From Lachnospiraceae bacterium (lineage in GTDB: Bacteria > Bacillota > Clostridia > Lachnospirales > Lachnospiraceae), in contig JAFSBX010000131.1 in assembly GCA_017437065.1 (NCBI GenBank), positions 21,772 through 85,771 on the forward strand: a stretch of DNA of 64,000 bases, written 5' to 3'. Below the pieces are notes generated by a model. It ran no database searches. It worked only from the letters and a program-made list of their open reading frames with translations, and was not told where the DNA came from. Both the position numbers and the translations under genes were made by a program. Numbering within the stretch: position 1 is the first letter of the stretch; each line of letters starts with the position of its first letter. Shown one piece after another: positions 2,102-20,969 of this stretch.

Positions 2102-2130
2102 TTGACGTGTCAGGTTCACTAGTATAGAAT
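2102..2130 (+). promoter_or_regulatory. Promoter of the GntR-lanthipeptide operon
   Basis: A -35 element TTGACG (2102-2107) and a -10 element TAGAAT (2125-2130) are separated by exactly 17 bp. The palindromic operator candidate begins at the last base of the -10 box, the layout expected for repression by the first gene of the operon. Confidence 0.75.
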
Positions 2131-2160
2131 GTACTTAAGCGATAAGTACATTAAGTACAT
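2130..2160 (+). promoter_or_regulatory. Operator candidate for the GntR/YtrA-like regulator
   Basis: A perfect inverted repeat, TGTACTTA (2130-2137) and TAAGTACA (2143-2150) with a 5-bp spacer, is followed at once by a third half-site TTAAGTACAT (2151-2160). It overlaps the -10 box and the predicted transcription start. YtrA-type GntR repressors bind such dyads upstream of their own operon; binding here is inferred. Confidence 0.65.
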
Positions 2161-2223
2161 TGATTATATTATCTATTTTAAGCATAAGATGAAAGTATGT
2201 AAGTATATACGATGAGGTACAAT

Positions 2224-2607
2224 ATGGAAATAATAATCAGCAGTAATGCAGACAAACCAATTTATGAACAAATAACATCACAAATTAAGGCCATGATAAT
2301 GTCCGGTGAATTGCAAACGGGAGATCCGATTCCATCTATGCGTTCTTTGGCTAAAACGATTCATGTTAGTGTGATTACGGTTCAGAAAGCATATGAAGAT
2401 TTAGCAAGAGACGGATTTATTGAAACAACGATTGGAAGAGGAAGTTTTGTAGCTGCACAGAATAAAGAGTTTATTAGAGAAGAACAACAAAAACAGATTG
2501 AGAAGCATTTGATAAAAGCGGTTGATAGTGCAAAGTGTAATGGAATTAAGTTAGAAAAGTTAACAGAATTACTTTCAATTTTTTATCTGGATGAGGGAGA
2601 GGAATAA
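2224..2607 (+). CDS. GntR-family (YtrA-like) transcriptional regulator
   Basis: The 127-residue product is the short YtrA type: a winged helix (residues about 8-75) with the typical KPIYEQITSQIKAMIMSGEL and PSMRSLAKTIHVS segments and the wing GRGSFV, then only a short helical tail for dimerisation and no large effector domain. I chose the ATG at 2224 because GAGGT sits 5 bp upstream; the ATG at 2212 lacks a ribosome site. YtrA regulators typically control linked ABC transporters, and here two ABC genes follow. The gene ends 5 bp before the DUF4097-like gene, so it is the first gene of the operon, and it probably represses its own promoter through the dyad at 2130. Confidence 0.88.
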   Translation: MEIIISSNADKPIYEQITSQIKAMIMSGELQTGDPIPSMRSLAKTIHVSVITVQKAYEDLARDGFIETTIGRGSFVAAQNKEFIREEQQKQIEKHLIKAVDSAKCNGIKLEKLTELLSIFYLDEGEE

Positions 2608-2612
2608 TAAAT

Positions 2613-3398
2613 ATGTTCAAAGTTATTGTTATTTTATTTGCTTTCATAACGATTTTGGGAGCGACATGCGAGAAGGCCTCTGCGAAGGAAGTTGATCTTA
2701 AAGATGGAGTAGCAGTGTTTACGGATATTAAAAAAATAGAAGCTGACATTACGGATGTTCCTATTACCATTATGGAAAGCGATGTCGAGGAAATTACTGT
2801 TACAAGTACAGTGGAAAATACAGGCATTGGAATTGTGACACAGCCGAAAGTCCGGGAGAAAGGAAACGTACTTCATTTTCATCAGGGGTATATGATTGGT
2901 TACGCTACAGAATCTACAGGTGTTGTGACAATAGAGATTCCGGAAGGAATGAATGTGGATATTGATATTACATCGGGAAGTGGTGATGTAACCATTGATA
3001 CATCAGCATCAAATAATATTTCGATAGATGCATCTGTAGGAGAAAAAACAGTAACATCAAAAGGCGAAAATCTTGTGATTGAATCAGTCAGTGGTGATAT
3101 CAATATTTATGGTGGTTTTACAAATACGAAAATTGATACAGTAAATAGTGATGTAAAAATGCATGCCGACGCTGATACGGAGAAAATATATTATAAGAGT
3201 GTTAGCGGTGATGCGGATATATGTGCCGATGGAGTAAAGGGATGTAATTTAAAATATAAGTATGCAGGTGGGAAAGCAGATGAATTTTTTGAGATGGAAG
3301 AAGATTCAAAAAAGACATTTGATGTAGAGGGAGATACTGTAGATGGAAGAATAAATATTGTAAATTGTGATGATAACTGCGATGATTTTAGTCAATAG
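2613..3398 (+). CDS. Secreted DUF4097-like beta-repeat protein
   Basis: The 261-residue product has an N-terminal hydrophobic signal segment (residues 1-19) and a likely signal peptidase I site after ASA (about residue 24). The body is a series of short Ser/Gly/Asp-rich strands such as ITSGSGDVTID and ESVSGDINIYG, the pattern of DUF4097 putative adhesin domains that fold as a beta-helix. It ends in an Asp/Cys-rich tail (NCDDNCDD). In Firmicutes such proteins often sit with GntR-ABC modules linked to envelope stress, as here. No sortase motif or convincing lipobox is visible. A role in immunity to the lanthipeptide is inference from position only. Confidence 0.7.
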   Translation: MFKVIVILFAFITILGATCEKASAKEVDLKDGVAVFTDIKKIEADITDVPITIMESDVEEITVTSTVENTGIGIVTQPKVREKGNVLHFHQGYMIGYATESTGVVTIEIPEGMNVDIDITSGSGDVTIDTSASNNISIDASVGEKTVTSKGENLVIESVSGDINIYGGFTNTKIDTVNSDVKMHADADTEKIYYKSVSGDADICADGVKGCNLKYKYAGGKADEFFEMEEDSKKTFDVEGDTVDGRINIVNCDDNCDDFSQ

Positions 3399-3430
3399 GA
3401 AGTTTCTGAGTACGAGAAGGGGAGCGAAAA

Positions 3431-4294
3431 ATGGATTATATCTTAGAAGTACAAAATTTATGTAAAACATATCCTGATAAAAATTTTATGTTAAATAATA
3501 TATCTTTTGGTGTAAATAAAGGGACGATTGTCGGGCTGGTAGGAAAAAATGGTGCAGGAAAAAGTACAACAATTAATACCATATTGAACATTATAAATAA
3601 AGACAGAGGGGTTATCAAATTATTTGGTAAAGAGATAAGTGATGCGGAAATTGATGTCCGCAATGATATAGCAGTTGTATTTGATAATATTAATTTTAAT
3701 GAAGAACTGACGCCTAAAAAGCTTGAAAAAGTTCTAAGTGAAGTATATAAAAACTGGGATAAAGAAGCGTTTTATCAGTTACTTAGCAGGTTTGATATAC
3801 CTTACGATAAAAAAATCAAGACGTTTTCCCGCGGTATGACAATGAAATTATCAATTGGCGTTGCTCTTTCGCATAAGGCAAGGTTGCTGATTTTAGATGA
3901 GGCAACAGCAGGACTTGATCCGGTTGTACGTGAAGAAATTCTGGATATTTTTCTGGAATTTATCGAAGATGAAAACAATGCAATTTTATTATCTTCACAT
4001 ATTTCAAGTGACCTTGAAAAAGTTGCTGATTATATTGTTTTTATCGATAATGGAACGATTATTTTGAATGAAACAAAAGACCGGCTGCTTTATGAGTATG
4101 GAATTGTCCGAATGAAACAAAAAGACTTTGAGAGTTTGGATAAAGCGGAATACATAGCTTTCAGGAAAAGAGGATTACAGTTTGAAGCTTTGGTTTCAAA
4201 TAAAAAACAATTCGCGAAAAAGTATCCGGATGTTGTGGTTGACAATACAACCATAGATGAAATGCTGGCATTGCTTACAAAGGGGGAAAAGTGA
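3431..4294 (+). CDS. ABC transporter ATP-binding protein (YtrB-like)
   Basis: A complete 287-residue ABC ATPase: Walker A GKNGAGKST, a divergent signature FSRGMTMKLSI, Walker B LLILDEATAGLDP and switch His in LLSSHISSDLEKVADYI. The last 70 residues form the variable C-terminal extension seen in drug or antibiotic exporters of this class. The next gene, a small permease, overlaps the stop codon, so the two form one transporter. Located between the GntR regulator and the LanKC gene, it is a candidate for self-protection or for sensing envelope damage. The substrate cannot be determined. Confidence 0.92.
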   Translation: MDYILEVQNLCKTYPDKNFMLNNISFGVNKGTIVGLVGKNGAGKSTTINTILNIINKDRGVIKLFGKEISDAEIDVRNDIAVVFDNINFNEELTPKKLEKVLSEVYKNWDKEAFYQLLSRFDIPYDKKIKTFSRGMTMKLSIGVALSHKARLLILDEATAGLDPVVREEILDIFLEFIEDENNAILLSSHISSDLEKVADYIVFIDNGTIILNETKDRLLYEYGIVRMKQKDFESLDKAEYIAFRKRGLQFEALVSNKKQFAKKYPDVVVDNTTIDEMLALLTKGEK

Positions 4295-4950
4295 TGAAAG
4301 GACTTATAAGACATAATATCTATTCTGTAGCGGATAAGATGAAACTGACAATCATCATAAATGTAATCGTAACGCTCGCATTTGCCATGGTAGGCATGTT
4401 TAACAAAGTAGTTTATTCGTGGGCAGCAGTTGTTATTTTATTGCAAATTTCAATTTATGCCGTGCAGGCTGTTTCGACATTACAGACAGATGCAAATTCT
4501 CAGTGGAATAAGTTTGAAATTACAATGCCGGTCAGACGAAAAGATGTGATAGGAGCCAGATACATTGGGTTTATATTATGTGGAATTGTTGGTATTATTA
4601 CAACATTAGTAACAATTGGAGTATTTTATTTATTTCAAACAAATGTAAACTTTGAAAGAGTAATATTCAGTGTTACTTTTGGAGTGGTACTTCTATTGTT
4701 AGTTCCTGCACTTACCCACCCATTGCTTTTGATTTTTGGGATAGATAAATCGGAAACAATGTCAGTGATTTCAATTTTTGCAGCAACTGTTTTGTATGTT
4801 GGTTCTTCAATGCTGTTTAATCTGGTATTACCTGATTTAAGTAATGGGGATCTTATTTTCAGGGGGATGATTATCATTATAAGTGGTATATTGTTTGCAA
4901 TTTCTTATGTAATTTCCAAACAGCTATACCAAAAAAGGGAGCTTAATTAA
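4294..4950 (+). CDS. ABC-2 type permease subunit
   Basis: The 218-residue product is almost entirely hydrophobic, with about six membrane segments, for example TIIINVIVTLAFAMVGMF and VIFSVTFGVVLLLLVPALTH. The soluble stretch SQWNKFEITMPVRRKDVIGA is typical of the ABC2 permease family found with YtrB-like ATPases. The ATG at 4294 overlaps the ATPase stop (TGATG) and fits the AGGGGG ribosome site; an upstream GTG would add one residue. Two copies with two ATPases would form the transporter. It ends 29 bp before the LanKC gene. Confidence 0.82.
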   Translation: MKGLIRHNIYSVADKMKLTIIINVIVTLAFAMVGMFNKVVYSWAAVVILLQISIYAVQAVSTLQTDANSQWNKFEITMPVRRKDVIGARYIGFILCGIVGIITTLVTIGVFYLFQTNVNFERVIFSVTFGVVLLLLVPALTHPLLLIFGIDKSETMSVISIFAATVLYVGSSMLFNLVLPDLSNGDLIFRGMIIIISGILFAISYVISKQLYQKRELN

Positions 4951-4979
4951 TTGTGTTTCAAGGTTAGGAGATGAAGTAA

Positions 4980-7535
4980 GTGAGTTACGATACGATGGGA
5001 AAATATTTAAATTATATCCATGCTGATTCGAACTATTACAAAAGAAGGGTTGCCGTTTCCGAAAAACAATTAGAAGTAGAAGGATTAACGGATGACTGGA
5101 AAATAACCGATGATGAAACATGGCGTTTCTATAATAACAGAAAGAGTCACCTGATGGAACAGGGATGGAAAATCCACATTAGCAGTCGTTATGAAGATAT
5201 CGAAGAAATGCTGAAAGTAGTAGCAGATATTCTGATTCCCATGAAGATATCATTCAAGCATTTGAAATCTAAGGAAATCGTATATTCCTGTTATTCAAAA
5301 AATGCGAATCGTCTGGTGGCCGGAAAGTTCATTACAGTTTATCCTGACGATAAACAATTTTTGCCACTATTGGATACACTATATACACAATTACAACAAT
5401 TTAAAGATGGTCCTTATATACTTACTGATAAGCAGTGGAAGGACAGTAATATCTATTATCGATATGGTGCTTTTGTAAAGATGTTATCCGATAAAAATGA
5501 GCTGTGTATTAAAGATCCTACCGGTAAATTAATTCCTGATGTAAGAAGTGCGTCTTACTATCTGCCGGAGTTTGTAGTTGAGCCGGAAGAATTGAAAAGG
5601 GCAGAAAAAATGTTCAATCCTCCCGCTAAAAAAGAGAATAAACTGGCAGCCTATGAGATTGAGAAAACAATACGATACTCGAATGCGGGTGGAATTTATT
5701 TAGCCAGACGAAAGGATACAAAAAAACAGTACATAATTAAAGAAGCAAGAAATGCGGTAGGGTTAGATTCAAAGTACAAAACAGCATTAGACAGATTAGA
5801 GAATGAAAATCACTTTTTAGATGCAACTTCCCGGATTGATGGCGTAGTTAAGAAAGTTGATTTCTTCAAAATATGGAAACATACTTTTTTGGTAGAAGAA
5901 TATGTTGAAGGAGATTCGCTGGCTCAGTGGATAGCCGGAAATTATCCTTTTACGAAGAAAGATAATGTGGATTTGTACTTTTCCAATTCGTTAAAAATCA
6001 TGAATGATATTAAAGAAACACTGATTAAAATGCATGATGCGGGTGTTTCCATGTGTGACCTGCAGCCACACAATATTCTGATAGATGAGAACTACAATAT
6101 TAAAATTATTGATTTGGAAACAGCTGCGGATGTAGAGGATAAACAAGAGTCCTCTATGGCTACCAAAGGATACTATGATAAAAGAAACGACACCGGCAGG
6201 GATAAAGACTGGTATTCATTAAATAGAATTTTTCAATATATGCTAATACCAATCGGAGCAGTTTATGATTTCGATATGAAACTTAATACTGTACATTGCC
6301 GATGGATTAGGGAACAGTTTGGATCAGCCAATTTTGAAAAGTTTCTTGAATTTCAAAAGAACACGTTAAAATACATATCAAAATCAAAAGAAATTTTTGA
6401 ATCTACATATGATGATTGTGTCAAAAACAATACGTCCGATATGATGTTGGAGGTAGCAAAAGATAAACTGTTAAAAGGTCTTATTTACAACTGTGATGAT
6501 ACATCGGAGAGTCTGATTAACGGGGATATTCGACAGTTTGAATATGATTGTGGGTTATTTAACTTATTAACAGGTGGTTTTGGAGCAATTACAGTCTTAA
6601 ACAAATATAATTATACTTCACCCATAATTAAGCAATGGATTGAAAAAACAATACCGGTCATAACAGATAACGAGTATAATCCGGGTCTGTTAACAGGCAG
6701 AGCAGGTATTGCATGTACGCTGTTCGAAAGTGGATATATAAATGAAGCCAAAACACTGATGGAACTCATTATAAAATCCTATGATGCAACAATGCAGGAT
6801 TTGACATTGCGATCAGGTATTTCAGGTATTGGACTGGCTTTGGTGGCTTTTTATAAGGCAACAGATCATAAGGAATATCTGGATGAGGCGGAAAAAATAG
6901 CGGCTATAATCGAAGAAAGAATAAAGGAGGAAGCTCCTTTGGCAACTTCGGATTGGGAAAGCTCTGAGACGGGATTAATTGACGGATATTCGGGAATGTC
7001 ATTATTATTTTCTGCAATTTACGGATGTACAAAAAAGACACAATATTTTGATTTTTCCAAAGAGTTAATATTTATGGATTTAGATAAATCTTTTCAATCT
7101 GACAGGGATGGTTCCTTGCAGACGCTGGATGCGGACAAGCTGTTACCATATTTGCGGAGCGGTAGTATAGGTATCGGAGTAGCGATAAAGACTTTAAATA
7201 ATGTGGGTGAGGAACAGGTATACACTGAGGAGTTGGAATCTATATTAAAAGTCGCGGATTATCGCTGCTGTTACGAGGCGGGCTTTTTGGATGGTATTGG
7301 TGGATTTTTTCTATGCCAATGCATAGATCACAATAAAAAAGATTATATGGAAAAGGCATATGAGAAATTAAAACTCTTTTTAGTACAGAAGGAGGACAAG
7401 CTGTTTCTGCCGGCAAAATATTTTTATAAATTATCACTGGATATGTATTCAGGAAGTGCGGGAGTACTGGCAGCAATATATTCAGCAGAGAAAGAAAATC
7501 CATTAGGATGGCTTCCTTTAATAGAATGTCTTTAA
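4980..7535 (+). CDS. lanKC: Class III lanthipeptide synthetase (LanKC)
   Basis: The 851-residue product has the three class III domains in order. Residues 1-210 match the phospho-Ser/Thr lyase, with the catalytic-type pair K64 and H66 in GWKIHIS. Residues about 225-480 are a Ser/Thr kinase with K254 (YIIKEAR), the catalytic loop CDLQPHNIL (D360, N365) and IIDLE (D378). Residues about 495-851 are a LanC-like cyclase with the glycine motifs LLTGRAGIA, LRSGISGIG and LIDGYSGMS. Where class I, II and IV cyclases carry zinc Cys/Cys-His, this protein has YLRSGSIGIG (about 724-733) and AGFLDGIGG (about 767-775), so the ligands are absent, which is the class III mark. It would phosphorylate and eliminate Ser/Thr and form thioether rings on the downstream peptides. 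It starts with GTG, with AGGAG 9 bp upstream. Confidence 0.93.
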   Translation: MSYDTMGKYLNYIHADSNYYKRRVAVSEKQLEVEGLTDDWKITDDETWRFYNNRKSHLMEQGWKIHISSRYEDIEEMLKVVADILIPMKISFKHLKSKEIVYSCYSKNANRLVAGKFITVYPDDKQFLPLLDTLYTQLQQFKDGPYILTDKQWKDSNIYYRYGAFVKMLSDKNELCIKDPTGKLIPDVRSASYYLPEFVVEPEELKRAEKMFNPPAKKENKLAAYEIEKTIRYSNAGGIYLARRKDTKKQYIIKEARNAVGLDSKYKTALDRLENENHFLDATSRIDGVVKKVDFFKIWKHTFLVEEYVEGDSLAQWIAGNYPFTKKDNVDLYFSNSLKIMNDIKETLIKMHDAGVSMCDLQPHNILIDENYNIKIIDLETAADVEDKQESSMATKGYYDKRNDTGRDKDWYSLNRIFQYMLIPIGAVYDFDMKLNTVHCRWIREQFGSANFEKFLEFQKNTLKYISKSKEIFESTYDDCVKNNTSDMMLEVAKDKLLKGLIYNCDDTSESLINGDIRQFEYDCGLFNLLTGGFGAITVLNKYNYTSPIIKQWIEKTIPVITDNEYNPGLLTGRAGIACTLFESGYINEAKTLMELIIKSYDATMQDLTLRSGISGIGLALVAFYKATDHKEYLDEAEKIAAIIEERIKEEAPLATSDWESSETGLIDGYSGMSLLFSAIYGCTKKTQYFDFSKELIFMDLDKSFQSDRDGSLQTLDADKLLPYLRSGSIGIGVAIKTLNNVGEEQVYTEELESILKVADYRCCYEAGFLDGIGGFFLCQCIDHNKKDYMEKAYEKLKLFLVQKEDKLFLPAKYFYKLSLDMYSGSAGVLAAIYSAEKENPLGWLPLIECL

Positions 7536-7609
7536 ACAGGTCATTGTTCGGAAGTATTTCTGAATTGACATAAAATGTTTATATTCAAAGAAAGGAGGAG
7601 TACATATTC

Positions 7610-7753
7610 ATGAGTGAAAAAGACATGGTTCTGGCTTTACAGGAAAATGAACCGGAAGCGACGGCTCTTGGGACGCTTACCATTACGGTAACTATTACAA
7701 CAAGAGTGACTATTGGCTGGTCAACAGCAAGTAACAACTGTGACAACGGGTAA
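7610..7753 (+). CDS. lanA1: Class III lanthipeptide precursor 1
   Basis: A 47-residue peptide directly after lanKC, preceded by AAAGGAGGAG. The leader begins MSEKDMVLALQENE and has the L-x-L-Q box that class III synthetases recognise in leaders. The C-terminal half is rich in Thr and ends VTIGWSTASNNCDNG, holding S38, S41 and C44 in a Ser-x2-Ser-x2-Cys arrangement, the pattern used for labionin or lanthionine rings. It is the divergent member of the three: its middle part differs, but the leader start and the last 15 residues are conserved with the other two. Expected product: a one-ring peptide with several possibly dehydrated Thr. Confidence 0.88.
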   Translation: MSEKDMVLALQENEPEATALGTLTITVTITTRVTIGWSTASNNCDNG

Positions 7754-7806
7754 AACAATTTGTAACTTGTAAAAATGTGTAAAAGGTGATGAAAGGGGAA
7801 ACAAAT

Positions 7807-7944
7807 ATGAGCGAAAAAGATATGGTTTTATCATTACAGGACAATGAGGAAGTAAGCGTAAAAGCTATTCCGATTACAATTACAACAATAACAACAGTAA
7901 CTATTGGCTGGTCAACAGCAAGCAATAACTGCGATAACAAATAA
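7807..7944 (+). CDS. lanA2: Class III lanthipeptide precursor 2
   Basis: A 45-residue peptide with AAAGGGG upstream. The leader MSEKDMVLSLQDNEE carries the L-x-L-Q motif and is acidic. The Thr/Ile-rich segment IPITITTITTVTIGW leads to STASNNCDNK, with S36, S39 and C42 as Ser-x2-Ser-x2-Cys. There is only one Cys, so at most one thioether or labionin ring can form; the Thr residues upstream may stay linear or become dehydrobutyrine. The product is identical in sequence to precursor 3. Confidence 0.9.
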   Translation: MSEKDMVLSLQDNEEVSVKAIPITITTITTVTIGWSTASNNCDNK

Positions 7945-7980
7945 TATAATTTATAAAAAGTGTAAAAGGAGAGAAAAAAT

Positions 7981-8118
7981 ATGAGCGAAAAAGATATGGT
8001 TTTATCATTACAGGACAATGAAGAAGTAAGTGTAAAAGCTATTCCGATTACAATTACAACAATAACAACAGTGACTATCGGCTGGTCAACAGCAAGCAAC
8101 AATTGCGATAACAAATAA
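7981..8118 (+). CDS. lanA3: Class III lanthipeptide precursor 3 (same peptide as precursor 2)
   Basis: The 45 residues are identical to precursor 2, although the genes differ at six positions, all third-codon and synonymous (for example GAG/GAA, AGC/AGT, ATT/ATC). AAAAGGAG lies upstream. The gene ends 5 bp before a strong hairpin at 8124 that separates the precursors from the exporter gene. Extra copies probably raise precursor dosage relative to the synthetase. Confidence 0.9.
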   Translation: MSEKDMVLSLQDNEEVSVKAIPITITTITTVTIGWSTASNNCDNK

Positions 8119-8123
8119 TATTA

Positions 8124-8166
8124 ACCCATGTCGGAGGCAAAGATTTCTTTGTATTCCGACATGGGT
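8124..8166 (+). terminator. Strong hairpin between precursor genes and exporter (attenuator or processing stem)
   Basis: Perfect 12-bp arms ACCCATGTCGGA (8124-8135) and TCCGACATGGGT (8155-8166) enclose a second inner stem CAAAGA/TCTTTG. No T-run follows, so it is not a classic full terminator. It more likely lowers read-through into the exporter or protects the precursor mRNA 3' end. Confidence 0.75.
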
Positions 8167-8210
8167 ATCATTAGCATGAGATGTTGTTTGTATTCAATGG
8201 GAGAAAATCT

Positions 8211-9818
8211 ATGAGGAAATACTTCTTTTTCTTAAAAAAATATTACAAAAAGCTAATTATATTATCGGTAGTTGTCCTATTTAGTTCTGTAATAAATATA
8301 ATGCTTACGTTTTTGTCAGGAGCTTATCTTGATGTTTTGGTTGAAAATGCTACATTGCAGAAATTACTTTTTTTGTGTTTTCTTTTTTTAGGAGCTTCAT
8401 GTATTAATTTAGTACTGCAATATTTAATATCCTATATTATGACACCTACAACTGAAAAGTTGATATTTGATATAAAAACATATTTATTAAAACATCTTAG
8501 AAGTATTCCGGTACTGAAATATAAGGAATACAATGTTGCTTATCTTTCTAAGAGAATTGAAGATGATTCACGTATTATCAGTCAGTTTTTTATAGATAAT
8601 TATATTTCATTAATTATTAAAGGAATCGAAATTATTACGATATTCATTTTGGTATTTAATATTAACAGTTATGTCAGTGCTTTGATGTTTATATTTTTAC
8701 CGTTATACTTTATGGTTTATAAAAAAATGAAAAAGTCTCTTTTTGATAAAAACATGATAGCCAGAGAAAAAAGTAATACGCTATTTCAAGATTATACATA
8801 TCAATTGGAGTATCTGGAAGAAAGTGTTATTAATGCAAATTTTGAAAATGATGACAGAATATTGGAACAAAAGTTTGGTGATTACATAAATAGTATAAAC
8901 TCCTTAGTTAAAGTAAACAGCAAGCTAACCTGTTCTCAAAATTTTATAATAGCAGCTATGAATATTTGTGTATTCATAGTAGGTGGAATCAGTGTTATAA
9001 ATGGAAATACCACAGTGGGCGGATTATCTGTTTTGATGTCATATTTTATGCAATTAATAAAAAATATAACATATTATATTCAATTAGGTCAGAAATATCA
9101 ATCTATTAAAGCTTCGATCCATAGAATTGATGAAATACTAAACATTCCTATTACGACAAATGGAACAAATCTGTGTAAAAGTATAGATCATATTGAAGCA
9201 AATATCAGTTTTGAAATTTTGAACCAGCAAATATTGTCAAATGTGATATTTGAATCTGTAACAGGTGATGTTATAGGAATAGTAGGCAACAATGGAAGTG
9301 GTAAATCAACATTAACTAAGGTGTTAATGGGAATCTATGATAGTAATAGTAAAATTGTGATTAATGAGAAAACCAATATGAACGATATAGATCTTTTTTC
9401 TATGAGAAGGGATATTATTTCTTATGTTCCACAGAAAATATCATATCGGGATGTTATGGTTGCGGATGTATTTGGCCAGGAAGGTATACTGATGCATGAG
9501 CAATTAATTGAGCTGTTTTCGGGATTAGGTATTCCGTTTTCGAATGAAGAACTGATTTTTATTCAAAGTAATTGGATGAAAAAAGTAAATGAATTGTCAG
9601 GTGGAGACCAGCAGTTTATTTCCATTTTGCATACAGTTATCAAACAAAAGAAAGTGATTATCTTTGATGAGCCGACAGCAAATTTAGATTTTCAGCGTGT
9701 AGAATTTTTTTGTAAAATAATTAATCTTTTAAAAGTAAACAAAATGATATTTATTATTAGTCATGATAATGAATTGGATAAATTGTTTACCCAAAAGATT
9801 AAACTTTCCAAATTATAA
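8211..9818 (+). CDS. ABC transporter with fused membrane and ATPase domains (lanthipeptide exporter)
   Basis: The 535-residue product has an N-terminal ABC exporter membrane domain (about residues 1-300, six hydrophobic segments) and a C-terminal ATPase. The ATPase has Walker A GNNGSGKST, signature LSGGDQQ, Walker B VIIFDEPTANLDF and switch His in FIISHDNEL. There is no C39 peptidase domain in front, so it cannot cleave the leader as bifunctional LanT exporters do. I prefer the ATG at 8211 (GGGAGA 6 bp upstream) over the ATG at 8181. It is the last gene of the locus, just after the precursors, and most simply exports the modified peptide. Confidence 0.88.
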   Translation: MRKYFFFLKKYYKKLIILSVVVLFSSVINIMLTFLSGAYLDVLVENATLQKLLFLCFLFLGASCINLVLQYLISYIMTPTTEKLIFDIKTYLLKHLRSIPVLKYKEYNVAYLSKRIEDDSRIISQFFIDNYISLIIKGIEIITIFILVFNINSYVSALMFIFLPLYFMVYKKMKKSLFDKNMIAREKSNTLFQDYTYQLEYLEESVINANFENDDRILEQKFGDYINSINSLVKVNSKLTCSQNFIIAAMNICVFIVGGISVINGNTTVGGLSVLMSYFMQLIKNITYYIQLGQKYQSIKASIHRIDEILNIPITTNGTNLCKSIDHIEANISFEILNQQILSNVIFESVTGDVIGIVGNNGSGKSTLTKVLMGIYDSNSKIVINEKTNMNDIDLFSMRRDIISYVPQKISYRDVMVADVFGQEGILMHEQLIELFSGLGIPFSNEELIFIQSNWMKKVNELSGGDQQFISILHTVIKQKKVIIFDEPTANLDFQRVEFFCKIINLLKVNKMIFIISHDNELDKLFTQKIKLSKL

Positions 9819-9824
9819 AATTGA

Positions 9825-9852
9825 GGGAGAATGCTTTGCACTCTCCCCTTTT
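9825..9852. terminator. Bidirectional terminator between exporter and ferredoxin
   Basis: Arms GGGAGA and TCTCCC, extended inward by TGC/GCA, with CTTTT on the right and AATTTT when read from the other strand. It lies between converging genes and can serve both. Confidence 0.8.
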
Positions 9853-11092: not shown

Positions 11093-11211
11093 AAAAATAC
11101 AGAACTCAAAAGTTTTGTTAAAAAATTATAAAATCATATACGTGAAAAAGATTATAGTAGGCAAAACAACCAATTGCCTGCTTCTTTTATTTTATTAAAG
11201 GAGGAAAAATG

Positions 11212-14200
11212 ATGGGAAAAAACAGAACTTACATCAAACGTTTGTTGACATTTGTACTTTGTGCAGCAATGGTATTCACTTCATTGAATATACCATCTGT
11301 AACAGTACAGGCTGCTCAGGATATTGCGATTTCTGAGACAATTAGTGAAGAAACACAGCAACAGACGGAAGCAGAAGAATCAACCCAGTCACAAGAAACG
11401 ACGGTTGAGGAAACAGTAACACAGACAGAAACAGAGGAGGCAACTCAGTCAACGGAAACAGAGGCAGAATCAACAGAAGTAGCAACGGAAGTTGAAGAAG
11501 TAACTTTGCCGGAGGAAACTGAGGTTGAAGAAACGGAAACAACAACGGAAGTTGAAGAAACATTAACTGAGGTTGAAGAGACAACAACCGAAGTGATAGA
11601 GACAGAAGTTGAAACGGAAGTTATAGAAATAGAAGAAACTCTGACAGAAGAAGAGACAGAGGAAGCTGAATTTGGAATTAGCGGTGAAGTAGTTGCTTTA
11701 GATACAGCAGAAACAGAAGTAATTATTTCCGAGCAGCAGAATCAGGCATTTGTAGGTAATGCTGTTACATTAACATATGTGGCTAATACAGAGGATTTTG
11801 CTTTTGGTACGGATTATACTGTAAAAGTTAATGGAACAGATGCGAAGGATAAAGTGACAGTTAATGATTCAACTATCACATTGGATAGCAGTTTGTTCAC
11901 ATCTGAGGGAGTATATACAATTTTATTTGAAAAAGCAGGATGTGTAATTTCACCTGTATATCAGAAGGTATATGCGAACGGCAGTACGGATGAATGGAAT
12001 CTGGTATGGTATGATGAATTTGCCGGAAATGCACTTGATACAAGCAAATGGGATTACCAGACAGGAAACGGTTCTGCATACGGAATTTCAGGATGGGGTA
12101 ATGAAGAAGAGCAGTATTATACAGATTCTACAGAGAATACATCTGTAGGTGATGGTACTTTAACAATTACTGCCAAGAAAGATGGAAAATATGAAGGAAG
12201 TAATTATACTTCTGCAAGATTACGTACAGTAGTAGAAGAACTGGATGCTAATGGAAATGCTAAAACAGGTACACCGTTAAAAATCGGAACTTACGGTAAA
12301 ATTGAAGCAAAAATGAAATTACCGGCAGGAAAAGGTGTATGGCCGGCATTCTGGATGCTTCCACATGATTCTGAATACGGTTCATGGGCTACATCCGGTG
12401 AAATTGATATTATGGAAGCGAGAGGTCGTTTAACTAACACTGTATGCGGTACAATTCATTACGGCGGTGTATGGCCAAATAACGTACATAACGGCAAAGA
12501 CTATTATTTTGCTGAAGGAGACAGTTTTGAAGAGTATCATATCTATACAGTAGAATGGGATCCTACAGAAATCAGATGGTATGTTGACGGAGAAGAGTAT
12601 AGCGCTATTTCCAACTGGTATGCAGAAGCCGGTGAAGAAGGAAATTATCCGTTCCCGGCACCTTTTGATGAAGATTTCTATATTCTTTTAAACCTTGCCG
12701 TGGGAGGAACCTTTGATTCAGTTGCTTCAGAAGACGTTGAAGTAGATGAAAACGGTGTGTCCATGGATGTGGATTATGTCAGATGGTATCAGAGAGATCA
12801 GGAGGTTTATGATAACTGGGAAATTACAGGGCCTACAATTGAAAAAGATGAAACAGAAACAGCAGACGAATTACTTGCTAAAACAGATGAAAACGGTAAT
12901 TTTATAAAAGACGGTAACTTTACTGAAATGAATACAACTCCATATACGGCAGATGGAAGTTGGGAAATCAAAGACGGTTACTGGGCAGCATTACTTATTC
13001 CGGGGAATGGAGCAGGTGAAGCTGCATGGTCTAAAGTAGATAATAACGGAAAGAATTATTTGAAAGTAGAAGTAACAGAGGCAGGAAGCCAGACATATTC
13101 CTCACAGATGTTACAGTACTTACCGATGGTAAAAGGATATTCTTATGAAATATCTTATTCTGCTTATACAGACACACTGGCTACAAAAGCAGATGTATCT
13201 TTGAAAATCGGTGGAGATAATGATAACGGATGGGCAGTTTATTCAGGAAATTATACAGATGAATTAACTACCACTCCTACAACTTACACGCATAAGTTTA
13301 CAATGACAGGTGAAACAGATGCTACAGCGAGATTTGAATTTAACCTTGCAACTTCAGAAGGTAATGTATATCTCAGTGACGTATCTGTGAAACTTACAGA
13401 AATTAACGAAAATGATGGTGAAGATGATGCGAAAAAGCCATTGTCTGATGGAAACCATGTATATAACGGTGAGTTTAATATCGGTATGGACAGCCTGTTA
13501 TACTGGCACTGGACAGGAAATGATGATGTTGCAAAAGTTGCAGTAGGAAAAGAAGACGGAAACCGCGTAGCACAGGTAAAAGCAACAGCAGAAAGTCCTG
13601 TATCTGTTTGGCAGTTAGGTATGAATTTGCTTCAGAAGGATGCTTATGAGTTAACTTTTGATGTAAATAGTGAAGCAGCACAGAATATTGGAGTAGCATT
13701 TACAAGTGCAGACGGACAAACAACTTATTATACCGAAAATAAAGCTGTACAGGCAGGAAAATCTACAGTTACAATTAAATTTACACAGCCGGAAGGTAAA
13801 ACAGATGAAGCAGCAAAAATGATGTTTACATTTGCAGGAAATGCTTCTTTGGACAATGTGAAGTTAATTCGTAAAACAAACAGTAACGTAGACTTTAGTT
13901 CCATGGAAATTTGGCCTATTTATAATGGTGATTTCTTTAATGGAAAAGACGGATGGAATATCTGGAGTCAGGATGGCTGCGGTATTGGTTCCGAAGTAAA
14001 TGCAGACGGACAGTTAGAAACAAAAGTGACAATTGTCGGAGGTGCTGCATTCTATTCAGCGGGAATCCAGTCTGCCGGCATGAAACTGAATAAAGGAATT
14101 AACTATAGAGTTAAATTTGATTATGATATTCCTTCTGAAAAAACATATAAAATCGAATTAGCAGGTGTACAGAGAGACATTACATTACCTGCCGGAAAAG

Positions 14201-17200
14201 GTACTTATGTCAGTGAGCCGTTTACAGGAGCAGGTAATACAATGTTTACATTGTATCTTGGACCGGTTCAGGCAGCAGAATATACAATATTATTAGATAA
14301 TGTAGAAGTTTATATTGATCCGGACAGCCTGACAGTGCCGGAAGGTTATGCAAAACCGGTAAGTCTTGCTCAGGATGGTGAAGGAAATACAGTAGATGGT
14401 GCAGTTGTAAAATATTCTGAAAATACAGCATGGGAAGCGGCAGCAAATAAAGAATATTATATCAATGGAACAAAAGTTAGTGATACAAATGTAGTTGTAG
14501 ATAAAGAAAATAATTTAATTAAATTAGATGTTTCCTGTTTTGCAAAAGCAGGCAGCTATACATTTGCAGTTGCAGCAGATGGATTTACTACAACAAAAGC
14601 AATTACATTAACAGTCATGGATGCAGCAGATACCAACAAATTATTGAATGGTAATTTCTCTGATGGAACAAATTCATGGGGATTCTGGACAGATCCGAGT
14701 TGTTCAACGAATGCATTTACCGTAGAAGATGGAGTAGCAAAGGTTTACCACCATTACAATATCGGTAATGCATGGGATTTACAGCTCTTCCAGGAAGGCT
14801 TAGCATACGAAGCAGGTGATTATGTTCTTAGCTTTGATGCGTGGGCAGATGTAGAAAGACCGATTAACTTGCGTTTACAAAATGGAAATGATGCAGTGGC
14901 AGGTACAGACAATTATGTACTTCTTTCCACTACAAAACCGCAGAAGTCCTACACATTTTTATTAAGGAATTTGAATGCAAACCAAAATGTGAAATTAAAC
15001 TTCCAAATGGGTAGTATGACTTTTAATGGTGTACCGGCATTAAACGATGGAGCAAATCCTTATAATATTTATTTTGATAATATCATATTACGTCCGGCAG
15101 AAGAAAGTGATTATGACACTATGCCGGGAGTCATTGCAACACCGGGATCGGCAACCATAGGCGAGGATGTTGAAGTAACTTATACAGAGGCATTCAGCAA
15201 ATGGAAAAATGCGGAAAAAACAGTTTATGTAAATGGAAAAGCCGTAGCTAATGATAAGGTGACAGCAACAGACAACGGTTTGACAATTGACAAGAGTGTA
15301 TTTACAGCTACCGGAATTGGCAGATATGAGATTTATATTATTGCAGAGGGCTTTGACAAGACAAATTCTGTTTATAAGAATGTAATTGATTTAGACGGCA
15401 ACCATATTTTTGACGGTGACTTGAGTAAGCAGGGTGCTTGGGAAATCATTGACGAAAATAAAGAAGGTTTAAGTGCAGGTGTTATTGAAAATGGTGAATA
15501 CAAATTAGACTATAATGCCGGATATTATAGAGACGACTGGAAGTGTTGGGTAGACTGGTCCTCACAGTTAAAACAAAGCAATATTTCATTGGACGCAGGA
15601 ACGAGTTATGTGCTTCGCTTTGATGCAGAAACAAACCTTGCCGGCGGACGTGATATCAATATTGAAATGAGCGGACAGGGTAAGACAGCCGTATCACTTA
15701 CAGAAGAGAGAGGTACTTATGAAGTACAGTTCGATAATGCACAGGCTATAGATAATTTCTATATTACATTCCTCGTAGGACCGGTTGGAGAAAAACTTCA
15801 GCAGAACGATGGAAACAATGCTTGTGTTGTACCTCATACATTAACAATTGACAATATCTCTTTGACAGTAGCAGGAGAAGAGAAAGAAGGCTTAAGAGTA
15901 AGTCCTATTCCAAATCAGACATATACAGGTAAGGCAATTAAACCGGAACTGACTGTATTTGATGGTTATAAACGTCTGAGTGCAGGAAAAGATTACACAG
16001 TAACTTTTAAAAATAACAAAAATAAAGGTACAGCTAAAGTTACCGTAAAAGGAAAAGGTAACTATGCAGGTACAGCTACAACAGAATTTGAAATCGTACA
16101 GAAAAATGTAGCAGATGAAGATATTGTACTTATTTACAAAGATAAACTGGTAGAAACTACCAAAAATCAGAAGCCGTTATCCAAAGTAACTTATAATGGA
16201 AAATCCTTAACCGGCAAAGAGTATAAGGTAGAGTACTTCCAGCTTGCAGACGGAGAAGTACCGGAAGATGCAAAAGCTTTGTCACAGGTGAAAAAAGCAG
16301 GTACTTATCAGATGGTAATTACCGGAAAAGGTAACTTTACAGGCAGCAGAAGTGAAACAATTACGGTATATCCAAAGAACTCTGTGAAGGATATGAGCAA
16401 GCTGAAGGTAAAATTCAAAAAGGTAGACAGCAAAGGTAACGTAAGCTGGGCAAACAGCTATAGCGTAGTATGGGATGGCACTTTCCAGACACCGGAAATT
16501 GCAGTATTCGATGGAAACAAAATGGTGGAAGCAGCTAACTACATTGTGGAATATGATCCGGTAAGCTGTAACAAGGTAGGAACTGCTAGCATTAAAGTCA
16601 CCGGTGTCATGACAGAAACCGAGGATGGCATCAGCGGATATATCGGAAGCACAACCAAGACTTTCAAAATTAATGCGACCAAGCTTTCTAATGTAGCAGA
16701 AATTGATGCTACAAAATGGAAAAAGACAGTAAGCATTGATGAAGTAACAGGATTTGCTGTGCAGGAAAGTAACATGTTGAAGCTGAAAGCCGGAAAAGTG
16801 GATGAAAACTTTGGTGAAGGCAGTGCTTATACAGTAAGCTATACAAAGAACAATAAAGCGGGAACTGCAACCGTTATCTACAAAGGAATCGGAAAGTACA
16901 ACGGCACAATTAAAAAGACCTTTAGTGTAGCTGCTATCTCTTTATTTGAAAAGAATAAGAGTGGTGCATATGTTCCGGTAGAGGGCGTAGAAGTTAACGT
17001 AGAAGAAAGTGTACAATTTGTTCAGAAGGGAAGCAAAGCAGCGGTAACAGTAATCTACAAAGGCATTATTTTGGAAGAAGGAAAAGACTATAAGCTGACC
17101 TACAAGAACAACAAAGCAGTAACAACAGCAAAGACAAAAGAAAATAAGAAACCACAGGTAACAATTACCGGTATCAATGGTTACAAAGGAAAAATGACAG

Positions 17201-17781
17201 TCAAGTTTGTAATTGAACCAACAGATTTGTCAACCTTAAGTATCGTATCAAAAGATGTGGCATACCAGAACAAGAAAGGTAAATTCATGTCTGCACCGGT
17301 AGTAACAGACTTATACGGAAGCAAACTGAAAGCAGGAAGAGATTATACTGTAAAATATTACTTAGGTACTGAGGAAAATGCACCGGAAGTAACGAAACAG
17401 GATGTAGTAGATGCGAACGAAATAATTAAGGTAGTAGTAACAGCAAAAGAAAACGGCAACTATATCGGAAGCATTGAAACCTCCTATGTGGTAGTAATTC
17501 AGGATATTTCCAAAGCGAAGGTAACAGTAAAATCAAAACCTTACACTGGAAAAGCGATTACACTTACCCCGGAGGATTTCACAACCATTAAGGTAGGAGA
17601 TACCAAGCTGGTAGAAGGAAAACATTATGTAATCGTAGAAGACAGCTATGTAAATAACATCAACAAAGGAAAAGCCAGTGTAATCATTAGAGGTGTTAAT
17701 AATTACGGTGGAGAAAAGAAAGTAACCTTCACAATTACAAGCCGTCCAATGTCATGGGTTCAGAATCTTTTCAAATGGTAA
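11212..17781 (+). CDS. Large secreted GH16 beta-glucanase with multiple carbohydrate-binding and Ig-like domains
   Basis: The 2189-residue product has a signal peptide (residues 1 to about 35, ending VQAAQ), then a Thr/Glu-rich linker of short TE-type repeats to about residue 157, and one small Ig-like domain. A GH16 domain follows (about 260-540) with E397, D399 and E402 in GEIDIMEARG, the laminarinase/lichenase catalytic motif. Behind it are about five CBM4/9-like modules, each starting with a phrase such as KDGNFTEM, YNGEFNIG, YNGDFFNG, LNGNFSDG or FDGDLSKQ. The last 600 residues are repeated small beta domains with the phrase AGKDYTVTFKNNKNKGTA. No LPxTG motif is visible. It would hydrolyse beta-1,3 or mixed-linkage glucans outside the cell. 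The ATG at 11212 is better spaced from GGAGG than that at 11209. Confidence 0.92.
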   Translation: MGKNRTYIKRLLTFVLCAAMVFTSLNIPSVTVQAAQDIAISETISEETQQQTEAEESTQSQETTVEETVTQTETEEATQSTETEAESTEVATEVEEVTLPEETEVEETETTTEVEETLTEVEETTTEVIETEVETEVIEIEETLTEEETEEAEFGISGEVVALDTAETEVIISEQQNQAFVGNAVTLTYVANTEDFAFGTDYTVKVNGTDAKDKVTVNDSTITLDSSLFTSEGVYTILFEKAGCVISPVYQKVYANGSTDEWNLVWYDEFAGNALDTSKWDYQTGNGSAYGISGWGNEEEQYYTDSTENTSVGDGTLTITAKKDGKYEGSNYTSARLRTVVEELDANGNAKTGTPLKIGTYGKIEAKMKLPAGKGVWPAFWMLPHDSEYGSWATSGEIDIMEARGRLTNTVCGTIHYGGVWPNNVHNGKDYYFAEGDSFEEYHIYTVEWDPTEIRWYVDGEEYSAISNWYAEAGEEGNYPFPAPFDEDFYILLNLAVGGTFDSVASEDVEVDENGVSMDVDYVRWYQRDQEVYDNWEITGPTIEKDETETADELLAKTDENGNFIKDGNFTEMNTTPYTADGSWEIKDGYWAALLIPGNGAGEAAWSKVDNNGKNYLKVEVTEAGSQTYSSQMLQYLPMVKGYSYEISYSAYTDTLATKADVSLKIGGDNDNGWAVYSGNYTDELTTTPTTYTHKFTMTGETDATARFEFNLATSEGNVYLSDVSVKLTEINENDGEDDAKKPLSDGNHVYNGEFNIGMDSLLYWHWTGNDDVAKVAVGKEDGNRVAQVKATAESPVSVWQLGMNLLQKDAYELTFDVNSEAAQNIGVAFTSADGQTTYYTENKAVQAGKSTVTIKFTQPEGKTDEAAKMMFTFAGNASLDNVKLIRKTNSNVDFSSMEIWPIYNGDFFNGKDGWNIWSQDGCGIGSEVNADGQLETKVTIVGGAAFYSAGIQSAGMKLNKGINYRVKFDYDIPSEKTYKIELAGVQRDITLPAGKGTYVSEPFTGAGNTMFTLYLGPVQAAEYTILLDNVEVYIDPDSLTVPEGYAKPVSLAQDGEGNTVDGAVVKYSENTAWEAAANKEYYINGTKVSDTNVVVDKENNLIKLDVSCFAKAGSYTFAVAADGFTTTKAITLTVMDAADTNKLLNGNFSDGTNSWGFWTDPSCSTNAFTVEDGVAKVYHHYNIGNAWDLQLFQEGLAYEAGDYVLSFDAWADVERPINLRLQNGNDAVAGTDNYVLLSTTKPQKSYTFLLRNLNANQNVKLNFQMGSMTFNGVPALNDGANPYNIYFDNIILRPAEESDYDTMPGVIATPGSATIGEDVEVTYTEAFSKWKNAEKTVYVNGKAVANDKVTATDNGLTIDKSVFTATGIGRYEIYIIAEGFDKTNSVYKNVIDLDGNHIFDGDLSKQGAWEIIDENKEGLSAGVIENGEYKLDYNAGYYRDDWKCWVDWSSQLKQSNISLDAGTSYVLRFDAETNLAGGRDINIEMSGQGKTAVSLTEERGTYEVQFDNAQAIDNFYITFLVGPVGEKLQQNDGNNACVVPHTLTIDNISLTVAGEEKEGLRVSPIPNQTYTGKAIKPELTVFDGYKRLSAGKDYTVTFKNNKNKGTAKVTVKGKGNYAGTATTEFEIVQKNVADEDIVLIYKDKLVETTKNQKPLSKVTYNGKSLTGKEYKVEYFQLADGEVPEDAKALSQVKKAGTYQMVITGKGNFTGSRSETITVYPKNSVKDMSKLKVKFKKVDSKGNVSWANSYSVVWDGTFQTPEIAVFDGNKMVEAANYIVEYDPVSCNKVGTASIKVTGVMTETEDGISGYIGSTTKTFKINATKLSNVAEIDATKWKKTVSIDEVTGFAVQESNMLKLKAGKVDENFGEGSAYTVSYTKNNKAGTATVIYKGIGKYNGTIKKTFSVAAISLFEKNKSGAYVPVEGVEVNVEESVQFVQKGSKAAVTVIYKGIILEEGKDYKLTYKNNKAVTTAKTKENKKPQVTITGINGYKGKMTVKFVIEPTDLSTLSIVSKDVAYQNKKGKFMSAPVVTDLYGSKLKAGRDYTVKYYLGTEENAPEVTKQDVVDANEIIKVVVTAKENGNYIGSIETSYVVVIQDISKAKVTVKSKPYTGKAITLTPEDFTTIKVGDTKLVEGKHYVIVEDSYVNNINKGKASVIIRGVNNYGGEKKVTFTITSRPMSWVQNLFKW

Positions 17782-17825
17782 TTGTTTAAATTTAATGTGA
17801 AATATTAACATGAAAAGAGTAAGAT

Positions 17826-17863
17826 AAAAAAGAAGCAGATGAGCAATCATCTGCTTCTTTTTT
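17826..17863 (+). terminator. Rho-independent terminator after the GH16 gene
   Basis: Perfect 17-bp arms around a GCAA tetraloop, with core AGAAGCAGATGA / TCATCTGCTTCT and terminal A and T runs. The rest of the gap up to 18067 is AT-rich, with a TATAAT at 18009 that may serve the chemoreceptor gene. Confidence 0.92.
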
Positions 17864-18066
17864 GGATAGTCAAAGTTTTGTAGACAAATGAATAAAAAGA
17901 AATGGTGAAGATATGTTAACAATTTTGTATAAAAATGGAATATAGTTAAAAGATACAAAAAAATAGTTTAAGTATATAAAAAATAGTGCAAAAACAACAA
18001 TAAAATGATATAATTATCATATGATGATGACATATACATTGTTAACACAATTAAGGAGGGGTCCGT

Positions 18067-19776
18067 ATGAAGTTGAATTTAAAAGGGATGAAAATCCAGC
18101 AACGATTAACTGTAGGATTTAGAATCACACTTATAATTGCCAGTCTGGCATCTGTTATTGCACTTGTGGTTGTATTTATTATGACAAGCCAGTATGATCG
18201 AACACTTACATATTACGCTTTTCCACAAGGGGATATAGCTCTTGCGATGAATGAATTTGCAGAAGTGCGAAGTGCTACGCGAGCGGTTATCGGTTATGAA
18301 GAACAGTCGGCAATTGATACGACCATGGTACAGCACGAAGAAGCAGTTGCAGAACTGGAGCGTCTGATGGCAGTTGTAGAGCCTACTATGGTAACAAAAG
18401 AAGGGAAAGAGGCTTTTGCGGCAATTGAGGATGCACTTGTAAAGTATTATGAAGTAGAGGCGAGAGTACTTGAAATAGGAGCAACTACAGATCAGGAATT
18501 ATGTACACAGGCGCAGGAAATAGCGATAAATGAGTTGACACCTGTATATGATGCAGTAGATGATGCCTTTACAGCATTAATGAAAATTAATGTAGAAAAG
18601 GGTGATGGTACGCAGGCACTTTTGGATACTTTACGATTTATACTTGCCGGAGTGATTATAATTGTAATTGCAGTTGCTGCGGTAGTTTCTAATCAAATCG
18701 GTACTTCGATTGCCAAAAGTATAGGAAAGCCAATTAGAGTTTTGGTGGAACGATTAGGTGCATTTGGAGAAGGAGACCTTTCATCAGAATTTCCGGCGGT
18801 ACAAGGGAAAGATGAAATTGGGGATATAGCAAGGGCATGTGAATCTATGGCCAAAAAACTGAGTGTGATTATTTCTGATGCAGATCGATTGTTGGGTGAG
18901 ATGGCAAATGGTAATTTCTATATTGCAACAGATTGTGAAGATGCATATACAGGCGAATTTAATGGCTTGCTTATGGGCATGAGAAAGATGAACAGACAGA
19001 TGGATGCAACTTTAAAGGAAATCAATGGTGCATCGGAAATGGTATCAAGTGGGGCATCAAACCTTGCGGAAGGTTCACAGGCTTTGGCAGAAGGTGCAAC
19101 GGATCAGGCGGCATCTATCGAAGAAGTACAGGCTACAATTGATTCTGTAACGGATGGTCTGGAGAAAACAGTAGAACAGATTGATGAAGCATACACAGAA
19201 GCACAGAGATGTGTTCTTGAGGCAGAAAGAAGCCATGATGAGATGGAAACTATGAAAGAAGCTATGAGACGCATAGATGAGACATCTCAAAAGATTGGAA
19301 ATATTATCGGAGAAATTGAAGATATTGCCAGTCAGACCAATTTGCTTTCTTTAAATGCGGCAATTGAGGCAGCCAGAGCAGGAGATGCAGGAAGAGGATT
19401 TGCGGTAGTAGCAGACCAGATTCGTAGTCTGGCTGAGCAAAGTGCAGAATCAGCAGTAAATACAAGGCAGTTAATTGAAGATTCTATCAACGAAGTAGCT
19501 AAAGGTAATGAGGTTACGGAAAGAACAGCAAAGGTACTTGAGACAGTTGTTGACTCTATCCGTGTTATAGCAGATACATCAAAGGTGTTGAGTGAAAATT
19601 CAGAAGCACAGGTACAGGCAATGGAACAGGCAGTGGCCGGTATTTCAAGAATTTCCGAAGTTGTTCAATCGAACTCTGCTACTGCGGAAGAAACATCTGC
19701 TACAAGTGAAGAGTTATCTGCACAGGCTATCTCAATGAATGAATTAGTTGGAAGATTTAAGTTGAGACAAGAATAA
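18067..19776 (+). CDS. Methyl-accepting chemotaxis protein
   Basis: The 569-residue chemoreceptor has a first membrane segment at about residues 16-40, a four-helix-bundle-like extracellular domain of about 150 residues, a second membrane segment (about 192-213, [17 protein letters not shown]), a HAMP domain and a long coiled-coil signalling domain. The signalling tip contains the highly conserved [20 protein letters not shown] and [18 protein letters not shown]. It would relay an external signal to CheA/CheW at the membrane. GGAGGGG precedes the ATG. The gene is a single unit with its own terminator, so the ligand cannot be guessed from neighbours. Confidence 0.95.
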
Positions 19777-19788
19777 TGATAAAAAATA

Positions 19789-19830
19789 AGGGGCTGCACT
19801 AATTTAGAAATTAGTGAACAGCCCTTTCTT
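19789..19830 (+). terminator. Rho-independent terminator after the chemoreceptor gene
   Basis: Outer arms GGGCTG (19791-19796) and CAGCCC (19819-19824) with an inner stem CTAATTT/AAATTAG, followed by TTTCTT. Confidence 0.85.
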
Positions 19831-19983
19831 AGATATGTGACTCTGTAGTGAATAGAAGTTTTTTATGATACCTGAATTGTAATAGAAAATATGAAAAATA
19901 TATTTTTAAATTCGCAGAAAAGTGGTATGCTTTTAGGAGTGTAGTATTATCGAATACAAAAGAGATGATAGGGAGAAAAGAGA

Positions 19984-20904: not shown

Positions 20905-20969
20905 TAAGTGTAATGTTTTGTTCTATACCAGAAAATGGATATAGAACAAAAGAGGGAGAGAAAATATAT

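Follow-up and report, generated by a model that had tools for sequence, protein, structure and literature searches.

A likely andalusicin-type class III lanthipeptide gene block in a Lachnospiraceae bacterium

Introduction

Which product does a compact set of lanthipeptide genes in a Lachnospiraceae bacterium encode, and do these genes form a new system? The set lies in a stretch of 64,000 nucleotides, hereafter the window (contig C123; JAFSBX010000131.1), of a 3.9-Mb genome that is assembled in 156 contigs and is 99.98% complete with 5.58% contamination. It comprises a LanKC-type synthetase, three precursor peptides, an exporter, a GntR-family regulator, a DUF4097 protein and an ATPase/permease pair of the ATP-binding cassette (ABC) type. 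We conclude that this block very likely makes a class III lanthipeptide of the andalusicin type, with the exporter, protection by the ABC pair and autorepression by GntR as proposed below. The cluster is real and looks intact. Its chemistry is expected to be ordinary, and it is the pairing of its parts that is of interest: the set is a new addition to a known class III lanthipeptide type, not a new system. This conclusion is carried by the gene content, the class and conserved residues of LanKC, the presence or absence of all genes as one block, and the homology of the precursor core.

Gene content and layout

The block covers ~7.9 kb, its features lie between 2102 and 9848, and all of its genes are on the + strand. 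Its features are, in order:

2102..2130, +, predicted promoter, TTGACG-17-TAGAAT (10/12 consensus; sites of this kind are no more frequent in the region than by chance)
2128..2161, no strand, operator-like sequence: 10-bp inverted repeat without mismatch (2128-2137/2143-2152), plus a third half-site (2151-2161)
2212..2607, +, small GntR-family regulator, YtrA/PmtR-like (Pfam GntR 1.6e-16; NCBIfam PmtR 118.8 bits, cut-off 200)
2613..3398, +, DUF4097 'toastrack' protein, LiaG/LiaX-like (Pfam E 1.2e-11; LiaG 31.2 bits, cut-off 285, and LiaX 22.7, cut-off 350, both far below)
3431..4294, +, ABC ATPase, PmtA-like (NCBIfam PmtA 271.2 bits, cut-off 350)
4291..4950, +, ABC permease, ABC2_membrane_5 (Pfam 2.9e-29)
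4980..7535, +, class III lanthipeptide synthetase LanKC with lyase, kinase and zinc-free cyclase (NF038151 737 bits, cut-off 575)
7610..7753, +, precursor peptide 1, 47 residues, LALQ leader and STASNNC core (NF038154 20.5 bits, just below the cut-off of 22)
7807..7944, +, precursor peptide 2, 45 residues (NF038154 30.6 bits, cut-off 22)
7981..8118, +, precursor peptide 3, 45 residues, protein identical to precursor 2, DNA identical at 132/138 positions (NF038154 30.6 bits, cut-off 22)
8124..8166, +, strong RNA hairpin in the gap between precursors and exporter, no T run (-28.1 kcal/mol, z -9.15, 0/200 shuffles as good)
8181..9818, +, ABC exporter, transmembrane part and ATPase (main Pfam matches ABC_membrane and ABC_tran)
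9824..9848, no strand, terminator-like hairpin 3' of the exporter (found on the - strand; + strand z -2.66, 4/200 shuffles as good)

The regulator, transporter pair, synthetase, three precursors and exporter that the initial annotation had listed were all recovered at their places and on one strand by open reading frame, Pfam and NCBIfam analysis. Its gene list needs to be extended by the DUF4097 gene (2613-3398), which had been overlooked, and its description of the locus as complete did not hold, since Pfam detects no leader protease among the genes of the set.

From GntR to the exporter, the intergenic gaps are 5, 32, -4, 29, 74, 53, 36 and 62 bases. The first four suggest one transcript for GntR to LanKC. 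The promoter that had been proposed at 2102 does exist as a site, with 10 of 12 consensus positions, but the region holds 39 such sites against 43.7 expected from shuffled sequences. A single transcript starting at 2102 is plausible. The hairpin at 8124-8166 may keep the precursor message high relative to the exporter message. We read the ATG at 8211, which has a Shine-Dalgarno sequence, as a better start for the exporter than 8181. No C39 peptidase was detected in the exporter by Pfam, and it aligns with peptidase-exporter models only past their N-terminal domain. The GC content of the block is 33.1%, compared to 37.6% in its flanks.

LanKC is a class III synthetase

LanKC carries RamC_N, Pkinase and LANC_like domains on a single chain (Pfam). 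It reaches 737.1 bits with the class III model NF038151 (cut-off 575) and 312.6 bits with the class IV model NF038150, below the cut-off of 650. The motifs YLRSGSIGIG and AGFLDGIGG, which had been quoted as replacing the zinc-ligand positions, are both present. Through the alignment with ThurKC, the andalusicin synthetase, the positions of the NisC ligands C284, C330 and H331 are occupied by R726, L770 and D771, so that the zinc ligands are absent. The class III assignment made at the outset was thereby supported. A class IV enzyme with zinc ligands, the alternative named beforehand, was checked for and rejected on the NF038150 score and the lack of these ligands.

By sequence, the best solved relatives are 9wop/9wj0 and 8sap/8sam/8sao, aligned over residues 9-849 (8sap: 585 bits, E 1.8e-174 over this range). 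As their numbering and leader fusion agree with PMC10604976, the 8sap, 8sam and 8sao structures are taken as ThurKC. We mapped by hand, via the 8sap alignment, the 25 ThurKC residues named in the accessible parts of that paper onto the window LanKC, which is identical at 20 of them. Kept are all eight lyase residues (K64, H66, K93, K107, K116, D150, R161, R189), seven of eight kinase residues (K254, R272, E276, D360, D378, E380, T395) and, in the cyclase, R518, R611, D658, D668 and D771.

Presence and absence in relatives

Two species of the same genus, G001 and G002, carry, in this order, the dnaB, merR, ferredoxin and radical-SAM activase genes, with zero genes between merR and ferredoxin (frames considered: at least 50 residues with a window match, or at least 110 residues without). 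At the right edge, likeness to the window DNA resumes at ~9871 in G001 (83%) and ~9877 in G002 (92%). At the left edge, merR is diverged (60-63% of residues). Clear DNA matches end at 1941-1966 for G002 and are lacking for G001. The whole set is absent at this site in both species and thus arrived or left as one block: judged from these sequences, LanKC shared its arrival or loss with GntR, DUF4097 and the ABC pair.

The two species alone do not separate insertion from loss. Insertion is favoured, because LanKC is rare in relatives. A LanKC above the class III cut-off was found in 2/98 relatives, 2/397 genomes of the family and 4/398 of the phylum, and a protein match at 1e-60 in 3/392 genomes of the order; the own genome is part of every count, the sets overlap, and the family, phylum and order scans scored at most two candidates per genome. 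The genome G901 of the same family carries a LanKC. Within the block, no gene was recognised as belonging to a mobile element. In a literature search, we recognised no report of class III peptides in Lachnospiraceae; one paper on the Hungate1000 genomes counts, in its accessible part, one class III-IV hit.

A second variable spot lies beside the block. Window positions 11209-21878, including a protein of 2190 residues read as a secreted glycosidase, are missing from the corresponding place in G002; the activase gene there stands directly before the homologue of window gene 21992.

Transport genes and DUF4097 at other loci

Scanning contigs with a single LanKC protein gave no relative, and an alignment-based scan gave at least 576. 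We surveyed the loci of the best 80 of these, 24 from Bacillota and 56 read as actinobacterial, some of them incomplete, for homologues of the block genes (blastp, E 1e-6, frames of at least 80 residues). Homologues of the ABC pair adjoin LanKC in 6 of the 24 Bacillota class III loci (L041, L043, L044, L046, L047 and L108; ATPase 43-46% and permease 24-27% identical) and in none of the 56 read as actinobacterial. A permease relative at 1e-8 is present in 6/41 genomes, the own included. We read the ABC pair as genes for putative self-protection or export. The exporter is related to those of three loci of genome G074 (34-41%), which is considered below.

The DUF4097 protein begins with what we read as a Sec signal peptide, which includes an A-S-A site. 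At E 1e-10, 2/299 family genomes have a relative, the own included. The other, in G034 (L147:5943-6755), lies behind a frame read as a PadR-like regulator and a gene for a small membrane protein, and no LanKC, GntR or ABC-pair homologue was found within the 13 kb examined there. DUF4097 as a marker of lanthipeptide loci was rejected on this ground, as G034 has a relative and no LanKC within 13 kb.

The regulatory region

The exact palindrome TGTACTTA-N5-TAAGTACA occurs once in the 3.9-Mb genome. Together with the third half-site, it covers and directly trails the promoter -10. A comparable arrangement is known from PmtR-PmtABCD of Staphylococcus, where, in the accessible part of PMC5080381, a small YtrA-type GntR repressor also precedes peptide-handling ABC genes with its site over the transcription start; across its start site, PmtR covers 36 bp, from which its peptides displace it. 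The block described here differs in that its proteins score below the NCBIfam cut-offs, a DUF4097 gene lies in between and there is one ABC pair only.

Proposed product and mechanism

All three leaders contain L-A/S-L-Q and all three cores S-T-A-S-N-N-C, which bears out the L-x-L-Q leader box and the Ser-x2-Ser-x2-Cys core described initially (3/3 by reading). The NF038154 cut-off is passed by two of the three precursors, and precursor 1 falls short by 1.5 bits. Cleavage probably occurs before A20; in precursors 2 and 3 this would give a 26-residue core with Cys at position 23 and nine Ser/Thr.

The block shares a number of features with the andalusicin system of Bacillus thuringiensis (ThurKC-ThurA1-7; AncKC). 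The LanKC enzymes are homologous nearly end to end. According to the accessible parts of PMC10604976, andalusicin also has several near-identical precursors with a Thr-rich core and a C-terminal ring motif, a Cys numbered 23, as would apply to the window core after a cut before A20, and a protease outside the cluster. In contrast to andalusicin, the window set has no methyltransferase for N-terminal dimethylation (Pfam), its core has three residues more after the Cys, it has its own GntR and DUF4097, and no M16B pair was found in the window genome (PF05193 only). Paenithopeptins and bacinapeptins are likewise class III peptides of Bacillota with proteases outside the cluster, and paenithopeptins carry labionin; unlike the window system, paenithopeptins have a disulfide besides the labionin and use M16B proteases (PMC8960859, accessible part).

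We propose the following sequence of events. LanKC would bind the L-x-L-Q leader, phosphorylate Ser and Thr of the core and eliminate the phosphate. The Thr-rich first half would become a row of dehydrobutyrines, with possibly up to 9 dehydrations in the core of precursors 2 and 3, and S-T-A-S-N-N-C would close into a labionin or lanthionine ring by a zinc-independent reaction. The ABC exporter would take the peptide out, and a host protease encoded elsewhere would remove the leader. The ABC ATPase and permease, and perhaps the DUF4097 protein too, would protect the producer. GntR would repress the operon at the palindrome over the promoter and release it once the peptide builds up, in the manner of PmtR and its peptides.

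Several observations weigh against this proposal. Five of the 25 ThurKC residues are changed (F236 to Y233, F383 to L379, S608 to T609, S726 to R726, F770 to L770). Since F770A hindered ring formation in ThurKC (PMC10604976, accessible part), L770 casts some doubt on the ring yield. With up to two mismatches, the genome holds fewer sites of the palindrome (2) than of its reversed control (6), and therefore only the exact palindrome is notable. The matches to the PmtR and PmtA models remain under the curated cut-offs (118.8/200 and 271.2/350 bits). Homologues of GntR and DUF4097 occur in 0/80 class III loci (the best 80 of at least 576) and in 0/10 loci of another survey, so that their link to the lanthipeptide genes depends on this one block. 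Finally, the M16B pair was not found in the own genome in a search that covered PF05193 as its sole family (not M1, POP or other proteases), with B. subtilis as a control that gave a match.

The single PF05193 match of the own genome is a PreP-type M16C protein of 1021 residues. As described in the accessible parts of PMC10604976 and PMC8960859, M16B pairs remove the leaders of andalusicin and of paenithopeptins. Either another protease acts in this nearly complete genome or the M16B pair was missed; it must be one of the two. The negative search points to a different maturation protease.

The peptide could also be a signal or a surface-active morphogen and not an antibiotic, which we consider unlikely. 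Many class III products are reportedly not antibacterial, SapB is said to be a surface-active morphogen for Streptomyces, and the Thr/Val/Ile-rich core is hydrophobic. However, andalusicin has the same core plan and inhibits Bacillus cereus (PMC11557216; PMC10604976), and an immunity-like ABC pair is present in the block.

Somewhat less probable still is that GntR, DUF4097 and the ABC pair form a YtrA-type module of their own for envelope stress or peptide resistance, behind which the lanthipeptide genes lie by accident. In the order, two other genomes (L143, L144) do have GntR with an ABC ATPase and permease and no LanKC in the stretch examined, and the lack of GntR and DUF4097 homologues at the best 80 class III loci and at the 10 of the other survey fits such a module. 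But both same-genus species searched are without all these genes at this place, which argues for joint arrival or loss, the ABC pair adjoins LanKC in 6/24 Bacillota class III loci, and the gaps of 5, 32, -4 and 29 bases suggest one transcript. We thus prefer one block devoted to an andalusicin-type lanthipeptide.

Origin of the precursor core

The core had initially been thought unlike recognisable class III products, and the product possibly new. The first view is not supported, and the case for a new product is weak: a near-same core is present in Paenibacillus and Shouchella, related ones occur in Thermoactinomycetaceae, and a close one has been published with a mass (PMC11594732, accessible part). 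A novel core was rejected after the precursors of related loci had been read and the literature match to the Paenibacillus lentus core had been found.

The window core ends in GWSTASNNC and resembles the Paenibacillus and Shouchella cores. AFPITITWTVTTVTVGWSTASNHC is encoded by Paenibacillus massiliensis (L041, two copies) and P. faecalis (L057), and Shouchella miscanthi (L108) has five copies ending in GWSTASN[D/S/G]C. The available part of PMC11594732 prints a precursor of P. lentus P8CEA5 with PITITWTVTTTVATWSTASNHC, and for this class III peptide a colony mass from matrix-assisted laser desorption/ionization was assigned with seven dehydrations. The pattern PITIT.T.TT....WSTASN.C is much the same in all four species. 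Leaders of P. massiliensis, P. faecalis and S. miscanthi, in contrast, are no closer to the window leader than shuffles, and their LanKC are 38-39% identical. In a text search of the literature with core strings, 1/5 was found, in PMC11594732 alone. A related core, STxSNNC, occurs in Baia, Thermoactinomyces and G749; in the last, six consecutive class III precursor-like frames share a strand (L035:5980-7252).

We compared serine codons in precursors with S[TS]xS[NV] followed by Cys and with L-x-L-Q upstream. Among 25 distinct DNA forms from 31 sources, 23, including the window's three, have a TCN codon for the first ring Ser and an AGY codon for the second; L027 and L037 deviate. The row of L055 is probably a chance fit (22/24 without it), and the forms are not independent, with several per genome, yet they come from at least seven genera. 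Four block genes use TCN 86 times and AGY 43 times (n=129), so that a TCN and AGY pair is expected in ~2/9 of independent cases. The WSTASN codons match those of Shouchella at up to 18/18 bases (two of the three window precursors compared), and the window core aligns with a Paenibacillus core over its whole length with one gap (0/300 shuffles as good). Because of the shared Ser codon classes in particular, this argues for common descent with the class III cores of Bacilli.

Convergence on an easily dehydrated Thr-rich strand with a ring motif is very improbable, for although the composition is of low complexity, LanKC is only 39% identical to that of Paenibacillus and one of the two codon-class exceptions, L027, belongs to the clade of the window enzyme, the TCN/AGY pair in 23/25 distinct DNA forms, the window's three included, the WSTASN match to Shouchella at up to 18/18 bases and the whole-core alignment with its single gap speak against it.

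Enzyme and, in part, leader group apart from the core

A LanKC tree of 33 rows was built with a quick method and support values from the Shimodaira-Hasegawa-like approximate likelihood ratio test (SH-aLRT); the B. thuringiensis enzyme is not among the rows. Kept out were L038, L040 and L049 (same records as L051, L027 and L028), L039 (broken), L075 (truncated), L060 (no long LanKC frame) and 52/56 loci read as actinobacterial by title. The window LanKC falls into a clade of seven rows with G120 (L034), G074 (L025-L028) and the Defluviitaleaceae metagenome-assembled genome (MAG) L048 (SH-aLRT 99; 97 for the six rows without L028). G120 and G074 belong to the same order as the window host. Identities to the window LanKC are 44% for G120, 41-43% for three of the four G074 copies and 37% for L048. 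A separate clade of twelve holds L041, L057, L108 and L035, and its named members are all Bacilli; the enzymes of the L041, L057 and L108 genomes are 38-39% identical to that of the window.

The MAG G074 has four LanKC genes that pass the class III cut-off. Each is on a contig of its own and has one or more precursor-like frames close by. One of them (L028:596-4804 on contig C124, a Defluviitaleaceae MAG record that also appears as L049) encodes a LanT-LanKC fusion of 1402 residues, seen in a single MAG, with ABC_membrane and ABC_tran at residues 15-493 and RamC_N from residue 583. A 39-residue frame with VLSLQ stands directly before it.

Leaders and cores were compared for 17 hand-picked peptides, some trimmed to an inner Met, a set that does not include every peptide found. 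The window leader is close to those of its own clade in L034 (z 5.1) and L048 (z 6.4), each with 0/300 shuffles as good, and shares K-D/E-x-V-L-S-L-Q with both. No such closeness is seen for the two G074 leaders in the set (L025 z 1.7, L027 z 0.4). None of the remaining leaders is clearly close either (z 0.4 to 1.8; S. suis 3.1), those of Paenibacillus and Shouchella (z 0.9 to 1.4) being no closer than shuffles. For the core the relation is reversed: z is 14.4 and 14.9 with two Paenibacillus cores and ~0 with the four own-clade peptides compared, whose cores are unrelated.

By these comparisons, the enzyme, and in part the leader, group with a different clade than the core. Either cores were exchanged, or the core is old and was lost in the few clade members sampled. 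Tentatively, and with less than even confidence, the precursors could be mosaics that join the leader and LanKC of the host's order to a core of Bacilli descent, core modules moving or persisting independently. In that case the peptide would be matured by a kind of protease not yet linked to class III, and the secreted DUF4097 protein and the ABC pair would form a new self-protection under a peptide-sensing GntR.

Implications

With this block, the andalusicin type of class III peptides reaches a family in which LanKC is rare. The mismatch between the clades of core and enzyme offers a natural test of the tolerance of class III enzymes for foreign cores.

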